Positions 47,350 to 56,758 of a stretch of 64,000 bases of DNA are shown piece after piece (the stretch's first letter is position 1; every line of letters begins with the position of its first letter). Position numbers and translations under genes: made by a program. The notes under the pieces were generated by a model. That model made no database searches and was not told where the DNA came from. It saw only the letters and a list, made by a program, of their open reading frames with translations. Location: NCBI GenBank assembly GCA_029250605.1, contig JAQXEZ010000008.1, forward strand, positions 111,770 through 175,769, read 5' to 3'. The stretch is from Candidatus Thalassarchaeaceae archaeon (GTDB lineage: Archaea; Thermoplasmatota; Poseidoniia; Poseidoniales; Thalassarchaeaceae).

Positions 47350-48600
47350 ATGGTGGGTTTACGGAGGGTTATGAGCGCGGCTAGCGTCAATGACGCTTCT
47401 GAAGCGGGTAGTTTGCTAAGAGTTTTCTCGAGTCCCTCCACTCTGCCGCACTTGCTTTCATTGGGGGCATTTTCTGGTTTCCTATACGTTGCAATGAAGA
47501 TAGACTTGTTTGGTTCCGAGATTCAAGGTAGCATCATTTTTCTTTCTCTATCCTTTTCATACTTCTTTGCTGCATTGATTTCACCAAGCAGAATAGGCAA
47601 ATGGATTTTTACAATTCGGTATGGCGATGATGGGGTTCTAAACCGGAATTATTGGTTTGGGGGATTTTCCCGATTGCTACCAATTATTGCAGTGGCAGGG
47701 ACATTCTGGCTGATCTCAAACCTTTTATTTGTTGAAGGGCAACTAAGCAATGCAAGGATATTTCTAGCTTTATTATTTATCGGGATGTCTGTTTTCCAAG
47801 GCGTTTCGTTGGCTTATGGCTGGGTTGTTTATGCAAGGAAAGTTCAACGGTCCCCTCGAAAAAGTAGGATTGGAGGAGTTTTTTCATTCGTTAGGTCATT
47901 AGCCGCTGTAATTGTTTTCTCCCCCTTAGTTTGGTGGTTTGGTTACGGTGCAGATAATCCCAGTAACGCCAGTTATACTGAGAATACTTATTGGATACTT
48001 TTCCTCATAATTATTGCTTTAATAGGAGTTTTATTGGATCGTTACACCAAGAGTGTGAGAGATAGAGATGGAGTTGACGGAGTCGCCTTGGACAGGGCAT
48101 TTTTCTTCATCTTCATTACATCTTGTTGGCACCTCCTAGGTGCATGGAGAAGAAGTCCAATTGCTACTGAGAAGAGCTCTGGAGGGATGCTTCTAGAAGA
48201 AGCAGTGCTAATGTCAATCTCGATAATTCTCGCTGTGTGGTCGATGTCGAAAAGAGGGGAAAAGGGTGGTTGGAGAATTTTTCAAGGTCAATCAGCGGTC
48301 TTCTGGGGTATTGGTTTTGGGTTCATCTATGCAGGAAGCATCTCGTCACTAACTGCCCTATCCGAGGGAAGTCTGCTTACGACCACTGCGATTGGGCATG
48401 CTATTACCGCACTGGTGATGATGGGGATTTTGCCAATTTGCATCTCTTGGATCGGACAGCCCGATGTTGAGAAAATTGGGGTGGTTAATCGACCGCAGCC
48501 AGCTGAAGAGGAGAGTGTTTTGAAGCATTTACCAGGAGTAGGAAAATTAACTCAAGAACGAACAATAATCGATGACGACGAAGTCGAATTATTGGACTAG
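47350..48600 (+). CDS. Polytopic membrane protein, unknown function
   Basis: Many hydrophobic segments; C-terminal cytoplasmic tail. Confidence 0.6.
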   Translation: MVGLRRVMSAASVNDASEAGSLLRVFSSPSTLPHLLSLGAFSGFLYVAMKIDLFGSEIQGSIIFLSLSFSYFFAALISPSRIGKWIFTIRYGDDGVLNRNYWFGGFSRLLPIIAVAGTFWLISNLLFVEGQLSNARIFLALLFIGMSVFQGVSLAYGWVVYARKVQRSPRKSRIGGVFSFVRSLAAVIVFSPLVWWFGYGADNPSNASYTENTYWILFLIIIALIGVLLDRYTKSVRDRDGVDGVALDRAFFFIFITSCWHLLGAWRRSPIATEKSSGGMLLEEAVLMSISIILAVWSMSKRGEKGGWRIFQGQSAVFWGIGFGFIYAGSISSLTALSEGSLLTTTAIGHAITALVMMGILPICISWIGQPDVEKIGVVNRPQPAEEESVLKHLPGVGKLTQERTIIDDDEVELLD

Positions 48601-49514
48601 AGGCCACTTACTACAGCAACGAGTCGGAGCCTTCCGGCCATATCCTCACTCGCTCTGGCGCCAAGTATTACCTGGCAGTCATTATCTAGAGTTGAGACGA
48701 ATGCCTCCGAGACCATATTAAGATGGCCAAGAGTCATGTCGGGGCCACCTTCAACTTGGATGAGACAGCCCTTGGCGCCGTCAGCCGAGATCTCGGACAG
48801 CGGAGAGTTCCGTGCCATTCTGACGACCTCCTCGGGGTCATCGGTAGTGCCGTTTCCAACGATAAGCGTGGCATTTCCCGGCCTCCCAATTACTGTCCGC
48901 AGATCCATAAGATCCAGGTTCATCTTGCCAACTCTCGCTAGAGTTGTGACCAATCCCTCAATCAACTCGCCAATCCATTCTGAGCCTAGCTTCCAGTCTG
49001 AGTTCCGATGCCTGGCCTGCCAAGCAAGCCTCTCGAGGCTAACTAGAATGCATAAATCAGAATTTATCTCTATAGGGGGGAGTGCTTTCTCCGCTATTGC
49101 GCATCTGAGTGGTTGCTCTGCAAATGGGATGCCGACGATGCTGATTACCAAGCTTCCAGACTCTCTCGATTTAGCAGCAATTTCTGCTGTTGCGCCCGAA
49201 CCGGTCCCGCCTCCTAATGCCGTTAGAAGGATGACTAATTCTGATTTCTCCAATAGCGCAGAGATGTTTGTGATTCCCTCATTGAGGCGATGAGCGGCCA
49301 GATTTGGGAGAGCAGCTGCGCCCCTCGCACTACCACTAGCGTCCAAGTGCAAACAGTGGGCCTCGTGTTCGGATGTAAAGGAGGATTCGTCGGCATCTAC
49401 CATTAGTAGATCGGCCATCTGTTGACATTTGTCGTGGGCTCCACCAGACCACTGGCAACCAATCCCCCCAACTCCAACAATCAGAATCGAGCCCTGCTCC
49501 ATGAGGGCCCGCAT
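48597..49514 (-). CDS. Divergent FtsZ/tubulin-superfamily protein
   Basis: ILIVGVGGIGCQ; LLTALGGGTGSGATAEIA (tubulin signature); MNLDLMDLRTVI (NxDxxD T7-loop). Confidence 0.78.
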   Translation of the reverse strand: MRALMEQGSILIVGVGGIGCQWSGGAHDKCQQMADLLMVDADESSFTSEHEAHCLHLDASGSARGAAALPNLAAHRLNEGITNISALLEKSELVILLTALGGGTGSGATAEIAAKSRESGSLVISIVGIPFAEQPLRCAIAEKALPPIEINSDLCILVSLERLAWQARHRNSDWKLGSEWIGELIEGLVTTLARVGKMNLDLMDLRTVIGRPGNATLIVGNGTTDDPEEVVRMARNSPLSEISADGAKGCLIQVEGGPDMTLGHLNMVSEAFVSTLDNDCQVILGARASEDMAGRLRLVAVVSGL

Positions 49515-49960: not shown

Positions 49961-50782
49961 ATGCTAGGTGAACGAAATATGACATCTCGACAAAAAACAC
50001 TGGTCCTTATTCTGGTCACGATTTTTGTTGCTGGCTCTGGTGAGGCATTGCACACAGGAGTTGGCGGGAACGCAAATGGACAGGGAGATGTGGCTCTTGC
50101 TGGTTGCACTTGCCACTCTGAAGAGCCGGACAATTCTGTAACCGTAATTCTTGATGGTGTGCCCTTCCACTATTCACCCGAAACAGCCTATGAGATGAAA
50201 TTACAACTTATCGGCGGTCCTGAGGCTAATCTGGAATCCTACACCGGGGGATTCTCAATGAGAGTTAGCATCGGTTCACTGGGACCTTCAGAAGGATTCG
50301 AAGACCTGGTCCAGAACTGGGAAGATGACCCTGCCACGCTCACTCACACAGATGCCGGCTCAAGGACCTCTGACAGATCATGGACGTTCATTTGGATAAG
50401 TCCAGCGGAGGGTTCAGGAACAGTGAACTTCATGGTTGCGGGCAATTCGGTAAATGGGGACATGGCGCCATCCAGCCTAGATCGGTGGAATCGCCTAACG
50501 ACTAGTTTTGACGAGGGCAATGACGATGGAAGAACGAGGACTGTCTTCTCGGGCAATGGTGACATCACACCCCCGGCTCCGGCGGAGGGTCACACTGACC
50601 TCCACCACATGGGTGCTAAGCTCTTGGCTCACTGGCTAGGACTTCTTGGATTCGGTGCGGTGATGCTGGTTATCCTATTCTGCGGACTTTTCCTAAGATA
50701 CGGTTTCTCCAGACATTACGAAGGCAGGAGTAACCTACTGAGGCTAAGAATAAAGCATCTAAGGAGAGGGGACCAACTATGA
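49961..50782 (+). CDS. Exported protein with CxCH motif and C-terminal TM anchor
   Basis: N-terminal signal, GCTCHSEEP, ectodomain of about 200 aa, C-terminal TM LGLLGFGAVMLVILFCGLFL; co-oriented with Rieske/cyt b. Confidence 0.65.
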   Translation: MLGERNMTSRQKTLVLILVTIFVAGSGEALHTGVGGNANGQGDVALAGCTCHSEEPDNSVTVILDGVPFHYSPETAYEMKLQLIGGPEANLESYTGGFSMRVSIGSLGPSEGFEDLVQNWEDDPATLTHTDAGSRTSDRSWTFIWISPAEGSGTVNFMVAGNSVNGDMAPSSLDRWNRLTTSFDEGNDDGRTRTVFSGNGDITPPAPAEGHTDLHHMGAKLLAHWLGLLGFGAVMLVILFCGLFLRYGFSRHYEGRSNLLRLRIKHLRRGDQL

Positions 50783-51228
50783 AAGACGACACAGTGATGA
50801 AGCTCCTCCGACAAGTGAAGTCGGGCGAAGTGAGCGTCGAGGATGCTAGAGTGGCTCTTGAAGACGCCACACTGACAGAAGAGTCGTTTGCTGCAGCTGT
50901 TGATCACGGGGTCTTCAACGATGTCAAACCGGGAACGATAGTGCGAGCCAGTCTGGCTCCATCCGGAGACTCGTGGCTAATCATCCTAGTAGGTCTGTGG
51001 GGGATTCTGTGGACACTCTATTGGGCAGGTGCTCTGGCTTACGGATTGTTTAATCACTGGGACCAGCAGTTGCTCTCATTCAATTTGGCAATGACCATGC
51101 TAACTCTCATTATCATGGGCATAGTGTACTTGAAGTACGTACTACCCGATGTGGTGATTGTAAAACACAGAAGGAACAAGTACATCACTAGCCATGACAC
51201 TAATTCTTGGAAGAAATACGAGGTCTGA
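50779..51228 (+). CDS. Two-TM membrane protein, unknown function
   Basis: WLIILVGLWGILWTLYWAGALAYGLF and MTMLTLIIMGIVYLKYVL; overlaps upstream CDS by 4 nt. Confidence 0.6.
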   Translation: MKDDTVMKLLRQVKSGEVSVEDARVALEDATLTEESFAAAVDHGVFNDVKPGTIVRASLAPSGDSWLIILVGLWGILWTLYWAGALAYGLFNHWDQQLLSFNLAMTMLTLIIMGIVYLKYVLPDVVIVKHRRNKYITSHDTNSWKKYEV

Positions 51229-51230
51229 AT

Positions 51231-52079
51231 ATGGCAAGGAGATTCAAATTACGCCAGATTGACTCGCAAAGTCAGAGTTTCCTTGAGAAGAGTGGGGCCA
51301 TTGACAGAAGGGAATTCATGAGGCTGTCTTTCAACACGGCTGCTGGACTAATCACAACAGCATCATTGGGTAGTGTAGGTTTTGCCTCGTTCCTAATGGG
51401 GCAGGAAGAAGGGAGCAGTTCAGACTCAGCTATCACATTCTACGTTCCAAAGGGATCCGATGTTTGGTACGGCAACTTGGACAAACAACCCATGACCATG
51501 CAAGCTTTCATTGACGAATCCGCTAATTCAACAACTGGAATGGTAGGGGCTGCCGGGCTTTGGTCTGGGTTGCCAATCATTGCAACCTACGTCCCTCATG
51601 AAGAAAATAAAAACAGACCATTGGAAGCGAATACTCCACGATTCCAGTTTATGGATGGATACACATCTGGTGGGGCTTATGTCGGATCAGGTTTCGAGAT
51701 CGAGGAAAAGGAAGAGTATGCAGCCCTGAATATCCATGATAACATGATTATAGTTTTTGCACGGTGCCCACACCTCTGTTGTATCCCGGGATGGCAACTA
51801 GTCAGCAATGACTTCACTGCAGACAGTTGGTTGCCGGGCGGTACGGACACAAGTGGGAACAAGTCATTCTGCATTTGCCACTCTAGCAGGTACGACCATA
51901 CCGTCATAGAAAAGAACACGGCGAGAAATCGGTCAAATGGGCAAGAGTTCGATTTCATAGGAGTAAAAAAGACTGGCGGGCCTGCCCCGTATGGGATGCC
52001 ATTGATTCCATTTACGGTTAACGGGGGAACAATCGAGGCGCTTCCAGACTTCATGGACTGGTACACATTCTGCGGTTAG
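51231..52079 (+). CDS. Rieske [2Fe-2S] protein
   Basis: CPHLCCIPGW and CICHSSRYD cluster/disulfide motifs; Tat-like DRREFMRLSFNTAAGLITTASLGSVGFASF. Confidence 0.9.
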   Translation: MARRFKLRQIDSQSQSFLEKSGAIDRREFMRLSFNTAAGLITTASLGSVGFASFLMGQEEGSSSDSAITFYVPKGSDVWYGNLDKQPMTMQAFIDESANSTTGMVGAAGLWSGLPIIATYVPHEENKNRPLEANTPRFQFMDGYTSGGAYVGSGFEIEEKEEYAALNIHDNMIIVFARCPHLCCIPGWQLVSNDFTADSWLPGGTDTSGNKSFCICHSSRYDHTVIEKNTARNRSNGQEFDFIGVKKTGGPAPYGMPLIPFTVNGGTIEALPDFMDWYTFCG

Positions 52080-52087
52080 GTGAGATA

Positions 52088-52960
52088 ATGATACAATTCT
52101 GGTTCTTGTGGATTTTCATCGCGGTCGTCGTTGTTATCGTCGCCTTCACACTGAGGAGGGAGCGTGACGACGTGCCGCGAAAGGACATTCTAAGAGCGGT
52201 GGAGACAAATGCTGGAAGCATGGGACTTGCCGAGAAATTATTCCTCTGGACCTTCTCCTGGTTGGACACCAGATTCAGAATCCAAGACTATTGGGGAATG
52301 AGCAGGGACTCATACTACAGCATGCACAGGCAGATGCCACTGACCCATGCCGAGAAGTATAAACTCAGAATAATCTGGTACTGGTACCCCCTATACTGCT
52401 TGGGAGGGATATCATTCATTGCGTTCATTATCCTAGTTATCACCGGAACGATTCTAGGTTTCTACTACGTTCCCGGGGGTGATCTAAATTCGGATCCGAC
52501 GCCTGCCTATGCATCAATGGAATTCATCATGTTGGAGTTGCCTTTCGGATACATCATCAGATCGATACACCACTGGGGCACGCACTTCTTCGTTGCTGCC
52601 GTCTTCCTCCACATGTGCAGAGTCTACTTCACGGGAGCTTACAGGAACCCCAGAGAACTCAACTGGTTAATCGGGGTCGCTTTGATGTTCTTCTCCATAT
52701 TCTTCGGTTACTCGGGTTATCTCCTCCCATGGGACAGTCTGGCTTTCGGTGCGGCTACTATTGGGATAAACATGGCAATGGCGACCCCTCTGGTTGGGGA
52801 ATGGGTCGCGAGTGCAATGTTCGGCGGGACTACGCTCACAGGGCAGACTGTTGTTCGGATGTATTTCCTCCATGTTTTCGTGCTGCCGCTAATAGTTACG
52901 GTGCTAATCTTGGCGCATCTTTTCATCGTCTGGGTTCAGGGAATTGCGGAGCCGCACTGA
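52088..52960 (+). CDS. petB: Cytochrome b N-terminal domain (b6-type)
   Basis: RSIHHWGTHFFVAAVFLHMCRVYFTGAYRNPRELNWLIG...GYSGYLLPWD...MYFLHVFVLPLIVTVLILAHLFIVWVQGI; heme His pairs present. Confidence 0.93.
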   Translation: MIQFWFLWIFIAVVVVIVAFTLRRERDDVPRKDILRAVETNAGSMGLAEKLFLWTFSWLDTRFRIQDYWGMSRDSYYSMHRQMPLTHAEKYKLRIIWYWYPLYCLGGISFIAFIILVITGTILGFYYVPGGDLNSDPTPAYASMEFIMLELPFGYIIRSIHHWGTHFFVAAVFLHMCRVYFTGAYRNPRELNWLIGVALMFFSIFFGYSGYLLPWDSLAFGAATIGINMAMATPLVGEWVASAMFGGTTLTGQTVVRMYFLHVFVLPLIVTVLILAHLFIVWVQGIAEPH

Positions 52961-52969
52961 GGTGATTAA

Positions 52970-55786
52970 ATGGGGATGATGGAGAGATTTGGAAGGATTG
53001 CTGATACCTACGTCAGTGAGAAGGAGCAATTGCTGGGTGCGGAAGAAGAGCGGAAGAGAGTGCACGCTGGGCATCCTTTCTGGCCAACTGAGGTCCTTAG
53101 GGACACCATTATCTTCGCAGCCATTGTGATGGTAATCGCATTCTACTCTTGGATAATCCCCCCTCCTTTGCACAATGCTGCTGACCCATACGCTCAGGCT
53201 GGTTTCGTTTTCCCCGATTGGTATGTCTTGTTCTCCTATGGATATCTCAGGTGGGGCGAGTACCTTCCCCAATTCGACATACCAGCCGGACCGATTGGTG
53301 AATTCTTCGGACAGCCTATTGTCTCCTGGAATGCTGGTGTCTGGGGGGCCATGATCACGGGACTTCCGGTTGGAATCCTAGCACTCCCACCATTCATCAT
53401 TGGAAAGAGAGAGAAAAGGGGAGTGGAAGACCCATGGTTCGCTACGGCTGGGGCGGTTTATCTCGCGCACGTCTGGTTCATCTCAGTATTCTCGATCAAC
53501 ATCTTTCTCGAGATGTATTCGAAGAATCGGACTGACTATTGTTGGTCTACCGCCCATGGTGGGTTCAATTGCGGAACTCAGGCCCCTTGGACAGCGGAAG
53601 TCTTCAATGCAATACCTTGGATCCTCACGGGCGTCTTCATCTTCACGGTTCTTTACTTCTCAGCGAGGAAGTTCCTGATCGGACCCATGGGATCCAGGCT
53701 GACTCCAATTCTGGGTCGACAGGTAGCAGTAGGATCTCTGGTCGCTACCGTCCTATTATGCACGGTGACTTGGCCCGTGTACGAGAACGGCTTTTGGAAT
53801 CAGCGAGGTCTGGGAACGATGGGTTTCTGGGAATACCAGTATGATGCAAAATTAGTCGAATTGGATGGAATTAGGGGTCAGCCGGGGGATACGTTGATTC
53901 ATTCAGAGGGAGGTCCAGTATGGGAAGAGTGGGGTGATGAATGCATACCTTACGAACAGACCAGTGCACTAGCAATATGGGACACAATGGAAGAGGGTAC
54001 TGAGAATTCCGAATGGTGCGTAATACCAGCCACTCATTGGATGAAATGGGGAGTTTTCCAGCCAACAAGAGCCAAGATTCTGGACTTCAGCGGTGCCAAT
54101 GGGCATGCGGATGTCCAAACCTCGAGGAACATAGGCGCTAACGAGATAATTTACCAAGGACCTCAGGACGGCTCGCCAATCGAAATCTCTGAGTCCATTC
54201 AATTTGAAGTGGAAAACTTGGGAGTCGCGAGTGTGCCAGCGGACGTCGGGTGCAACTTCAGGACCACGGTTCGTGCAGCAGGGGTTCATTCGCAGAGTCT
54301 TGTGCTTACCGATGAGGCCGGCGAGACAATCTGGATGAATGAAGGATCGACCTGTGACTCGGGCACTATTTACCTAGACTCTGGCGTTTCATACACCGTA
54401 ACTTTCACGACGCAGTCGGAGGGCGTGAACGAAAGCGTCACTATGATCTCTGATTTCTCTGCGATTGCGTACCAACCACTTCTCGTCGCCGGGGATGGAA
54501 CTGCGATAATCCGTTCCGAAATGAGCCTCAGTGACGAGCAGCTGTCCACGATGTCAATAACAAATCCGACTTTCCAGAAGAACCCTAAGAGCTTGGATGC
54601 GAAGCTGATCTACTCCATGTTCATCCCATGCCTGGGAGTGGGTGCCCTAGTCTTCGTGATGCTAAGGAGCATGGCACGAGGCTACGAGTGGGAGATGAAC
54701 AAGTGCTATGGATGCGACCTTTGCGACGATGCTTGCCCAGTCAGGCTGTTCAACGCAGGAGACAAGTTGAACATCATCTACAACACATGGAACAACGAAG
54801 ACGACGGAGTCCCACTGTACTCCTGCTTGACCTGCACAGCATGTACGAACGCATGCCCGCAACTCGTAGACTACGACTCCTATATCGACATCAGGAGGAA
54901 TCTCGTTGTGGGTGGGCCGCCGGCGACAGAGATCCCCCACACCGTCCTCCAGGCAGTACTTGCCGCGGAGGCTGAGGAGGATGCTGATGACTCATTCATA
55001 CCAGTGGATGACTACCCACTCGACTCCAGTATCGGATATTACCCCGGATGCGTTGACTACATCGACCAGGAGATGGTATTCAGCCATGTCAACAAGGGCA
55101 GCATGGACCTAGGGGATGCGACAACTTCGGCGTTCACGATTTTCGAGGAGATGGGAGAAGAAGTCACATACCTAGGTAGGGACTTCCTGAAGTGCTGCGG
55201 GCACGATCAAAAGTGGCAGGGTATGACAGAGGTCTTCGAGAAACTCAAGAGTTACAACCAGAAGAAACTAGGCGAGAGCGGGATCGAGACGCTAGTCACG
55301 TCGTGCGCAGAGTGCTTCAGGACATTTGCCCTGGACTACGAGCTAGACGACATGAAGGTGATGCACACGACCGAGTTCCTAATCGAGAATGGGTTCGACA
55401 TGGAGTTGAAGACCGACAACGAGGTGACCGTGACCTACCACGACCCATGTCGTCTGGGTAGGCAGATGAACATCTACGACGAGCCTCGTGACCTGGTTGG
55501 TTCGGTGGAGGGGGTCAACCTAGTGGAGATGGAGCACACCGGCGAGGATGCACTTTGCTGCGGAGTCTCCAGCATGATGTCATGCAACGAGAACAGCAGG
55601 GCACTTAGGGTCCAGAGATTCGACGAAGTCAGGGCCACGGGTGCCGACATAATGCTGACATCCTGCCCTAAGTGCGTGGCTCACTTCGAGTGCCTGAAGT
55701 TCGAGGGCGACCCGAGACACGACTTCGAGATTCTAGACGTGGTCAGCTTCCTTGCCAGACAGATTGAAGAGTCCAAGGCGAGGTAA
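52970..55786 (+). CDS. Fusion: cytochrome b C-terminal (subunit IV-like) domain, extracytoplasmic domain, 2x[4Fe-4S] ferredoxin, double CCG (HdrD/GlpC-like) module
   Basis: PDWYVLFSYGYLRW (PEWY-like); CYGCDLCDDACP and CLTCTACTNACP; PGCVDY..CCGHD..TSCAEC; DPCRLGRQ..CCGVSS..TSCPKC; single uninterrupted 938-aa ORF. Confidence 0.9.
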   Translation: MGMMERFGRIADTYVSEKEQLLGAEEERKRVHAGHPFWPTEVLRDTIIFAAIVMVIAFYSWIIPPPLHNAADPYAQAGFVFPDWYVLFSYGYLRWGEYLPQFDIPAGPIGEFFGQPIVSWNAGVWGAMITGLPVGILALPPFIIGKREKRGVEDPWFATAGAVYLAHVWFISVFSINIFLEMYSKNRTDYCWSTAHGGFNCGTQAPWTAEVFNAIPWILTGVFIFTVLYFSARKFLIGPMGSRLTPILGRQVAVGSLVATVLLCTVTWPVYENGFWNQRGLGTMGFWEYQYDAKLVELDGIRGQPGDTLIHSEGGPVWEEWGDECIPYEQTSALAIWDTMEEGTENSEWCVIPATHWMKWGVFQPTRAKILDFSGANGHADVQTSRNIGANEIIYQGPQDGSPIEISESIQFEVENLGVASVPADVGCNFRTTVRAAGVHSQSLVLTDEAGETIWMNEGSTCDSGTIYLDSGVSYTVTFTTQSEGVNESVTMISDFSAIAYQPLLVAGDGTAIIRSEMSLSDEQLSTMSITNPTFQKNPKSLDAKLIYSMFIPCLGVGALVFVMLRSMARGYEWEMNKCYGCDLCDDACPVRLFNAGDKLNIIYNTWNNEDDGVPLYSCLTCTACTNACPQLVDYDSYIDIRRNLVVGGPPATEIPHTVLQAVLAAEAEEDADDSFIPVDDYPLDSSIGYYPGCVDYIDQEMVFSHVNKGSMDLGDATTSAFTIFEEMGEEVTYLGRDFLKCCGHDQKWQGMTEVFEKLKSYNQKKLGESGIETLVTSCAECFRTFALDYELDDMKVMHTTEFLIENGFDMELKTDNEVTVTYHDPCRLGRQMNIYDEPRDLVGSVEGVNLVEMEHTGEDALCCGVSSMMSCNENSRALRVQRFDEVRATGADIMLTSCPKCVAHFECLKFEGDPRHDFEILDVVSFLARQIEESKAR

Positions 55787-56140: not shown

Positions 56141-56473
56141 ATGACCAAGGTTGGTGACGTCCTGAAGAGGAGGGCGGTAGAGCAGTCAAAGATCAGGGTC
56201 CAACTAAACTCGGTCAGGGCCGAAGAGGAGGCCTTGCTCAAGGGTGGGGAGGACACTGTGGCTTGGGTGAAGGAAGAACTATGCATCGGCTGCGACCAGT
56301 GTACAATAGTATGCGAAGATGATGCAATAGAGCTCTATGACACCCCTCTTGCAAGCCCCATAATGGATGTGGACGTCAACAGGAAGGCGAGGATCCTGAG
56401 GGACCCCTGCACTGGGTGCAAGATTTGCGTCTTAGCGTGTCCGACTGATGCGATTATCATGATAGACAGGTGA
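56141..56473 (+). CDS. 2x[4Fe-4S] ferredoxin-domain protein
   Basis: CIGCDQCTIVCEDDAIEL...CTGCKICVLACPTDAIIM. Confidence 0.88.
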   Translation: MTKVGDVLKRRAVEQSKIRVQLNSVRAEEEALLKGGEDTVAWVKEELCIGCDQCTIVCEDDAIELYDTPLASPIMDVDVNRKARILRDPCTGCKICVLACPTDAIIMIDR

Positions 56474-56479
56474 AGTAAG

Positions 56480-56758
56480 ATGGGTGATGATGATCCAGTT
56501 AGGTTTGGGGCAGAATTCGGCCCCCACAGAACCAAGAGGGCTAGTGGGGTTTCCCTTTCCACATTCAAGACTCTTGTTTGGGTATCCAACCTAGGAGGTT
56601 TGATCCTATTCGCCATTGGGATGGAGTTGATGATCAGGGGTTCTTTCTGGTTAGGTATCGCATGCATTGTAATTGGTGTCGCAATAGCACTATTCCCATC
56701 GAACTACGAGATTGTTGGAATGGAAGATCTGGAAGGCGGCGGATGGGAGAAGAAGTAG
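56480..56758 (+). CDS. Small two-TM membrane protein
   Basis: WVSNLGGLILFAIGMELMI, FWLGIACIVIGVAIALF. Confidence 0.5.
   Translation: MGDDDPVRFGAEFGPHRTKRASGVSLSTFKTLVWVSNLGGLILFAIGMELMIRGSFWLGIACIVIGVAIALFPSNYEIVGMEDLEGGGWEKK

Follow-up and report, generated by a model that had tools for sequence, protein, structure and literature searches.

A b6-type Rieske/cytochrome b complex fused to an HdrD-like iron-sulfur module in the archaeal order Poseidoniales

A subunit IV that continues into a predicted cytoplasmic iron-sulfur module

The window analyzed here is a 64,000-nucleotide stretch from a Candidatus Thalassarchaeaceae archaeon (source genome G000; 1.48 Mb, 86% complete). At positions 51231 to 55786, on the plus strand, it carries three consecutive genes for a Rieske protein, a b6-type cytochrome b, and a 938-amino-acid (aa) protein in which cytochrome b subunit IV runs on into an iron-sulfur module of the HdrD type, resembling that of the heterodisulfide reductase of methanogens. 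The domains, their order, and the conservation of the fusion were established by sequence comparison, and the complex probably exchanges electrons with a cytoplasmic carrier as well as with quinones. An earlier note on this DNA had described the three genes in this order, and its coordinates, strand, lengths, and motifs were reproduced on rechecking. A GGTGA-type ribosome site is present at both junctions among the three genes, where 8 to 9 bases separate one gene from the next.

The 938-aa protein (52970 to 55786, plus strand) was delimited from domain matches and from its single frame in relatives. Its first part (52970 to 53782) is a subunit-IV-like half with five transmembrane (TM) helices, as indicated by alignments and the charge pattern, and the PDWY at 53213 to 53224 in the Qp site is invariant in the alignments and conforms to the P-[ED]-W-Y motif of the P site (Qo). 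PF00032 was not detected in the window protein itself. However, this half aligns to a homologue from another lineage, L066, with an E value of 3e-15, and the L066 protein is one 606-aa chain in which PF00032, PF02754, and several Fer4 families all exceed their curated cut-offs and which also matches the cytb6_f_IV model (TIGR01156; 1.4e-7). Thus, the subunit-IV identity of the window half stands by transitivity, and the proposal that the protein starts as the C-terminal half of cytochrome b is borne out by this route.

The chain continues through an extracytoplasmic domain (53783 to 54604), a beta-sandwich resembling the GOLD domain according to alignment and AlphaFold/Foldseek comparison, and returns to the cytoplasm by a last TM helix (54605 to 54667; AlphaFold helix 541-570 and charge count). 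This is followed by an HdrC-like dicluster ferredoxin (54704 to 54856; CYGCDLCDDAC and CLTCTACTNAC), recognized by Fer4 matches and profile matches to HdrC chains, and by two CCG motifs, C-x47-CCG-x34-CxxC (55049 to 55315) and C-x35-CCG-x33-CxxC (55448 to 55675). The open reading frame (ORF) matches PF02754 in two stretches (2e-22), which contain the CCG motifs, as well as Fer4 families, so that the Pfam search suggested in the earlier note reached PF02754 and Fer4 directly and PF00032 only through L066. Both CX(n)CCX(n)CXXC motifs for noncubane clusters are complete. In a profile search, HdrC chains (33-133) and then HdrB chains (238-385) were matched, in that order. The score for the HdrC equivalog TIGR03290 was 18.4 against a cut-off of 160 and that for TfrB was 109 against 385, so the module is not classed as Hdr proper; its best family matches (TfrB, LdhH, and GlpC) are all far below the curated cut-offs.

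The full-length AlphaFold model was weak (mean predicted local distance difference test score, 59), with helices at about 40-62, 122-138, 155-185, 206-240, 246-273, and 541-570. When the C-terminal 395 aa were modeled, the HdrB fold was good and the confidence of the ferredoxin was poor, and Foldseek retrieved EtfD, LutA, and HdrB with this model. The short inside loops are basic, and the 274-residue ectodomain is acidic (40 acidic and 13 basic residues). On account of this charge pattern and the six predicted TM helices, the iron-sulfur module was placed on the cytoplasmic (N) side; the topology model thus supports a module that faces the same side as heme cn and Qn. An extra heme in the TM helices of subunit IV, as in the anammox models, was considered and rejected: H167 is conserved in the order, and the equivalent residue is not His in L053, L066, or Marine Group III (MGIII).

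Conservation of the fusion within the order

A phylum-wide sample of 293 genomes was used, including 82 of the window's order (Poseidoniales, or Marine Group II [MGII]), which comprises two families and has MGIII as its sister. The module was found in 80 of the 82 genomes, nearly always in one frame of about 920 to 990 aa, so a b6-type core joined covalently to an HdrD-type module, as the earlier note had described, is a property of the order. Over 46 orthologues, the eight ferredoxin cysteines and the ten of the CCG motifs are at least 97% conserved, which exceeds chance by far. C191 and C201, likely a disulfide pair in the P-side loop, are likewise at least 97% conserved.

The earlier note had cautioned that a misassembly or frameshift near 54.6 kb might have created the fusion, and this caution was the sole basis for such a reading. 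Dozens of independent genomes of the order have this junction within a single frame, two other families also carry the fusion, and the window ORF contains no stop or frameshift. We therefore regard a chimera as next to impossible. A module that serves in assembly or regulation and is electronically isolated from the quinone sites is very improbable. The phylum does include unfused relatives whose subunit IV is ordinary, and hence the core can do without the module; yet the 18 metal-ligand cysteines are retained, the ferredoxin fusion is present in every fused lineage, and the gene order is kept.

When 84,980 species were scanned with two peptide patterns, fusions were found solely in Thermoplasmatota-like records and in one contig filed under Chloroflexi. 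The latter (L081, NZTZ01000011.1; "Chloroflexi bacterium isolate EAC10") is probably misbinned, as its operon is of the MGIII type. In addition, genome G002 has a second, f2-like operon copy on a short contig (L062, G002:C5), likely due to binning contamination.

A graded series in Thermoplasmatota

Relatives in the phylum show the parts in different degrees of fusion. Subunit IV without a ferredoxin occurs in families f4, f15, f21, f23, f31, f32, and f39 and in hypersaline lineages; in the three that were inspected (G060, G080, and G241), it ends in "YE..LNRTYYKVR" or similar, at exactly the point at which the fused forms read "YE..LNRCYQCxxC." In MGIII and CSMAG_355 (L088), subunit IV is fused to the ferredoxin, the CCG protein is encoded by the next gene, and a ferredoxin gene follows. 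Thus, in these relatives with a separate HdrD part, a situation that the earlier note had asked about, the CCG gene was directly adjacent rather than unlinked. In L084 the ferredoxin is likewise fused to subunit IV, and no CCG gene was found up to the end of the contig. The full fusion without an ectodomain is found in two deeper Thermoplasmatota families (G083, 789 aa; G091/L066, 606 aa), and the full fusion with an ectodomain is found in the window's order; the ectodomain is missing from the MGIII, L053, and L066 homologues. Fused and unfused lineages are separated in the cytochrome b tree, with moderate support (86/86) and long branches. By eye, an unfused subunit IV of another family (L135, G080:C55) has a LamG-like ectodomain at about the site of the window ectodomain.

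The Rieske and cytochrome b subunits

The Rieske protein (51231 to 52079, plus strand) has a twin-arginine signal (RREFMRL) and was identified by its motifs and by a TIGR01416 match below the cut-off (3.9e-8). Its [2Fe-2S] ligand boxes are complete (CPHLCC, 51765 to 51782; CICHSSRY, 51870 to 51893). The 290-aa cytochrome b (52088 to 52960, plus strand) matches PF00033 (2.8e-41) and the b6 subunits of solved b6f complexes (1e-41). It contains YCLGG (52394 to 52408), His-x13-His (52568 to 52612), LPWD, and His-x14-His (52871 to 52918). The four heme b His ligands have the b6 spacing (14- and 15-residue offsets), and all of them match those of cytochrome b6 in 7r0w and 1vf5 by alignment.

YCLGG aligns to FYCLGG of b6, so that a Cys is present at the position of b6 Cys35, the heme cn cysteine. 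This Cys occurs in all fused lineages except some MGIII, which have Ser, and in none of nine inspected unfused relatives, which have Thr, Ala, or Ser. The co-occurrence of Cys and fusion in these alignments is consistent with an electrical link on the N side, yet by descent it represents very few independent events. In L086 (6840 to 7469), subunit IV stops at the fusion junction without the ferredoxin cysteines, and an Ala stands at the heme cn Cys position of the partner cytochrome b; a joint loss of both is possible.

Other features of cytochrome b vary among the lineages. Helix B (52568 to 52612) has an HHWxxH motif, with two extra His residues (i, i+4) beside the heme bp ligand, which may form a metal or proton site. 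The motif was found in the window's order, MGIII, L053, L084, and L088 and was absent from L066, the unfused relatives, and b6. By eye, the cytochrome b of L053, L054/L066, and L067 is fused at its N terminus to long extracytoplasmic Ig-like/Big_5-type repeats, and that of L066 and L067 has a cytochrome c-like CHG motif.

A ferredoxin gene adjoins the operon

The genes for the Rieske protein, cytochrome b, and the fusion protein are contiguous in every locus that is long enough. Downstream in the window lies a gene for an RnfB-like dicluster ferredoxin (56141 to 56473, plus strand; best NCBIfam match rnfB, 3.4e-11, below the cut-off), the probable soluble redox partner. The protein resembles the iron-sulfur domain of RnfB. 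Of 47 distinct loci of the order, 44 have the gene next to the operon, and so do MGIII and L088; in family f2 it is still there, mostly in flipped orientation. In family f25, the gene beside the full fusion encodes an HdrA-like protein with an FlpD domain. MGII archaea have been reported to carry RnfB without the remaining Rnf proteins (PMC6336850), and this orphan RnfB is probably the product of the operon-adjacent gene.

The window genome encodes a 2-oxoacid:ferredoxin oxidoreductase, a NuoD-type complex I, cytochrome c assembly proteins, cupredoxins, and a rhodopsin, and two MqnA/D-family proteins predict a menaquinone-type quinone. NuoF, HdrA, and FlpD were not found in this 86% complete genome, and order- and genus-mates at 92 to 96% completeness agree. 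HdrA-based bifurcation in the window organism was rejected because HdrA and FlpD were not found in its genome or in the order-mates tested. A separate 666-aa EMO/EtfD-like (ETF:menaquinone oxidoreductase-like) protein, which has lost one Cys from its first CCG motif, argues against ETF as the donor. Flavin-based bifurcation and ETF input are therefore unlikely in this organism. In another genome, a cluster of etfBA, an EMO-like protein, and a molybdopterin-type oxidoreductase was observed (G011:C15, L063).

Proposed electron route and its alternatives

We propose that the complex is a Rieske/cytochrome b-type menaquinol:cupredoxin oxidoreductase to which a cytoplasmic HdrBC (HdrD-like) electron wire is covalently joined. 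The two [4Fe-4S] clusters of the ferredoxin part would lie beneath the N-side quinone site and heme cn, and the two noncubane clusters of the CCG part would be exposed to the cytosol. The donor would most likely be the adjacent RnfB-like ferredoxin, charged by 2-oxoacid:ferredoxin oxidoreductase, or alternatively a thiol pair. From the donor, electrons would travel along the module to heme cn/Qn for the reduction of menaquinone, and menaquinol would be oxidized at the P site (PDWY and Rieske), with electrons passing to cupredoxin and on to an oxidase.

Judging from the sequences, we assign a probability of about 0.45 to the input direction, from ferredoxin or thiol to Qn via the Hdr-like module. 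It is favored because this transfer is downhill to menaquinone, because the ferredoxin gene is a conserved neighbor, and because heme cn has been proposed as the conduit for ferredoxin electrons in b6f (PMC9342900). The intact b6-type core (bis-His ligands, heme cn Cys, and PDWY) and a Rieske protein with canonical ligands also fit, as do the N-side placement of the module, its conserved cysteines, its HdrC and HdrB profile matches, and a genome with 2-oxoacid:ferredoxin oxidoreductase, NuoD but no NuoF, menaquinone genes, and cupredoxins. By analogy, the route would be a covalent version of the cyclic-flow path of b6f (ferredoxin-FNR to heme cn to quinone), itself proposed rather than proven. 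Several points weigh against it. Adjacency of the ferredoxin gene is linkage and says nothing about direction. A route from ferredoxin to menaquinone that does not pump would forgo the energy that the genome's own complex I conserves. In epipelagic MGIII the module is retained although the heme cn position is Ser, so heme cn cannot be a strict requirement. The two complete CCG motifs suggest disulfide-type chemistry over a plain ferredoxin relay. Finally, the electron path and its direction are inferred.

The energy loss is like an objection raised for the anammox complexes in favor of the opposite direction (PMC12954380). In that direction, quinol would be bifurcated at the P site, with one electron going to Rieske, cupredoxin, and O2 and the other through the b hemes and the Hdr-like module to ferredoxin or a disulfide. 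Kuenenia Rieske/cytochrome b complexes with cytoplasmic iron-sulfur-flavin modules, in which subunit IV likewise has five TM helices, are proposed to make NAD(P)H in this way (PMC12954380). The window Rieske box holds both the Ser and the Tyr typical of high potential, which together with the predicted menaquinone-type quinone is in favor of this direction. However, the Tyr is replaced by Phe in several relatives, and the HdrA-linked family has lost the Ser too. In addition, the potential of ferredoxin is hard to reach from menaquinol against the membrane potential, a heterotroph with its own supply of reduced ferredoxin would gain little from it, and no flavin module was found in the window genome. 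Reverse transfer is considered rather unlikely here.

Quite doubtful, too, is a module that takes electrons from one particular dehydrogenase or thiol (2-hydroxyacid, glycerol-3-phosphate, or low-molecular-weight thiol), as in LutA/LdhH, GlpC, TfrB, and EtfD, with the ferredoxin incidental. The closest families and folds named above speak for such a role, and both CCG motifs are complete, unlike those of the genome's EMO/EtfD-like protein. Yet those families' curated cut-offs were missed by far, no dehydrogenase gene was conserved beside the operon in the inspected neighborhoods, and an ETF:quinone oxidoreductase-like protein already exists separately in the genome.

Compared with these alternatives, the input route remains our preferred reading. 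A wider role is conceivable, although we lean against it: the bc complex might also be a ferredoxin/disulfide oxidoreductase that combines P-site bifurcation with Hdr noncubane chemistry on one covalent wire. It would then be a reversible hub, near universal in the order, at which the low-potential pool of the cytoplasm meets the menaquinone pool and respiration with O2. The earlier note had suggested a core linked to a cytoplasmic thiol/disulfide or ferredoxin couple; the fusion of core and module stood, and the interpretation was refined by the heme cn Cys and by the conserved ferredoxin or HdrA-FlpD neighbor.

Other genes of the cluster

The first gene of the cluster (49961 to 50782, plus strand) encodes a membrane-anchored, extracytoplasmic "choice-of-anchor V" protein (NF041895, 3.4e-22). 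Class-mates have it in the equivalent position, and L084 has a cytochrome c gene there instead. Its GCxCH motif, also seen in L055 to L060, is kept in both orders and is one residue short of the c-heme motif CxxCH; it may reflect heme attachment to CxCH, a copper site, or a lost heme. The next gene (50779 to 51228, plus strand) encodes a small two-TM protein related to DUF7318 (PF24002, 1.5e-5, just below the curated cut-off), which MGIII and other relatives have at the equivalent place. Behind the ferredoxin gene, and paired with it in nearly all ferredoxin-bearing loci, is a gene for a 92-aa TM protein with an FGAEFGP motif and no Pfam match (56480 to 56758, plus strand). Upstream of the cluster, a divergent FtsZ/tubulin-family protein is encoded at 48597 to 49514 (PF00091 and PF12327); G031 and G052 have one too.

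Significance

The window's order is among the commonest archaeal orders of the ocean, an abundant marine group. Should the module and the quinone core indeed exchange electrons, this complex would offer a natural setting in which to test direct N-side electron injection into a b6f-type complex, a long-debated step of photosynthetic cyclic electron flow. MGII have been described as having cytochrome b and Rieske proteins without a canonical bc1 complex, as well as an orphan RnfB (PMC6336850). The operon suggests an explanation for both observations: complex III would be a different enzyme, the fused one, with the RnfB-like protein probably acting as its partner ferredoxin.

Comparison with known systems

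No earlier description of the fused complex was found in the open-licence literature, in agreement with the earlier note's impression that it was undescribed. The b6f complex and the split bc complexes of Firmicutes and haloarchaea share with the window the Rieske protein, the four-helix cytochrome b, and subunit IV; b6f also shares the heme cn cysteine, and haloarchaea share a DUF7318-like small subunit. In these systems, however, subunit IV stops after the TM helices, without an iron-sulfur or CCG domain.

HdrDE/DsrMK/QmoC and EMO/EtfD resemble the window in having an HdrC-like ferredoxin and a CCG module on a membrane cytochrome b with quinone chemistry. Unlike the window, they use a NarI/HdrE-type diheme subunit and have no Rieske protein or bifurcating P-side site. 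The membrane part of the window complex is subunit IV plus b6-type cytochrome b, and the arrangement of a NarI-like N terminus with an iron-sulfur-CCG C terminus, which defines EMO/EtfD, is that of the genome's separate 666-aa protein and not of the fusion. The soluble HdrABC-MvhAGD complex also contains HdrC and HdrB domains and a full pair of CCG motifs, and an HdrA-FlpD gene adjoins the f25 fusion. In contrast, the window module is fused to the membrane part, HdrA and FlpD are undetected in the genome, and coenzyme M/coenzyme B chemistry is not expected.

Among described systems, the nearest is the Rieske/cytochrome b complex of anammox bacteria, which has an NAD(P) oxidoreductase on the cytoplasmic side. 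Kuste4569-4574 and Kustd1480-1485 share with the window a b6-type cytochrome b, a five-TM subunit IV, a Rieske protein, and a cytoplasmic iron-sulfur module for which electron exchange with the core's N side has been proposed; unlike the window, their FAD/NAD(P) oxidoreductase is separate, and they include large multiheme cytochromes c (PMC12954380). The window complex is archaeal and has a covalent HdrC-HdrB module without a flavin domain and a ferredoxin neighbor. If the proposed link is correct, it would join anammox as a second, unrelated example in which a bc complex is connected to low-potential chemistry in the cytoplasm. Both halves of the window complex are of known kinds, and the anammox complexes are a precedent for a cytoplasmic redox module on a bc complex.

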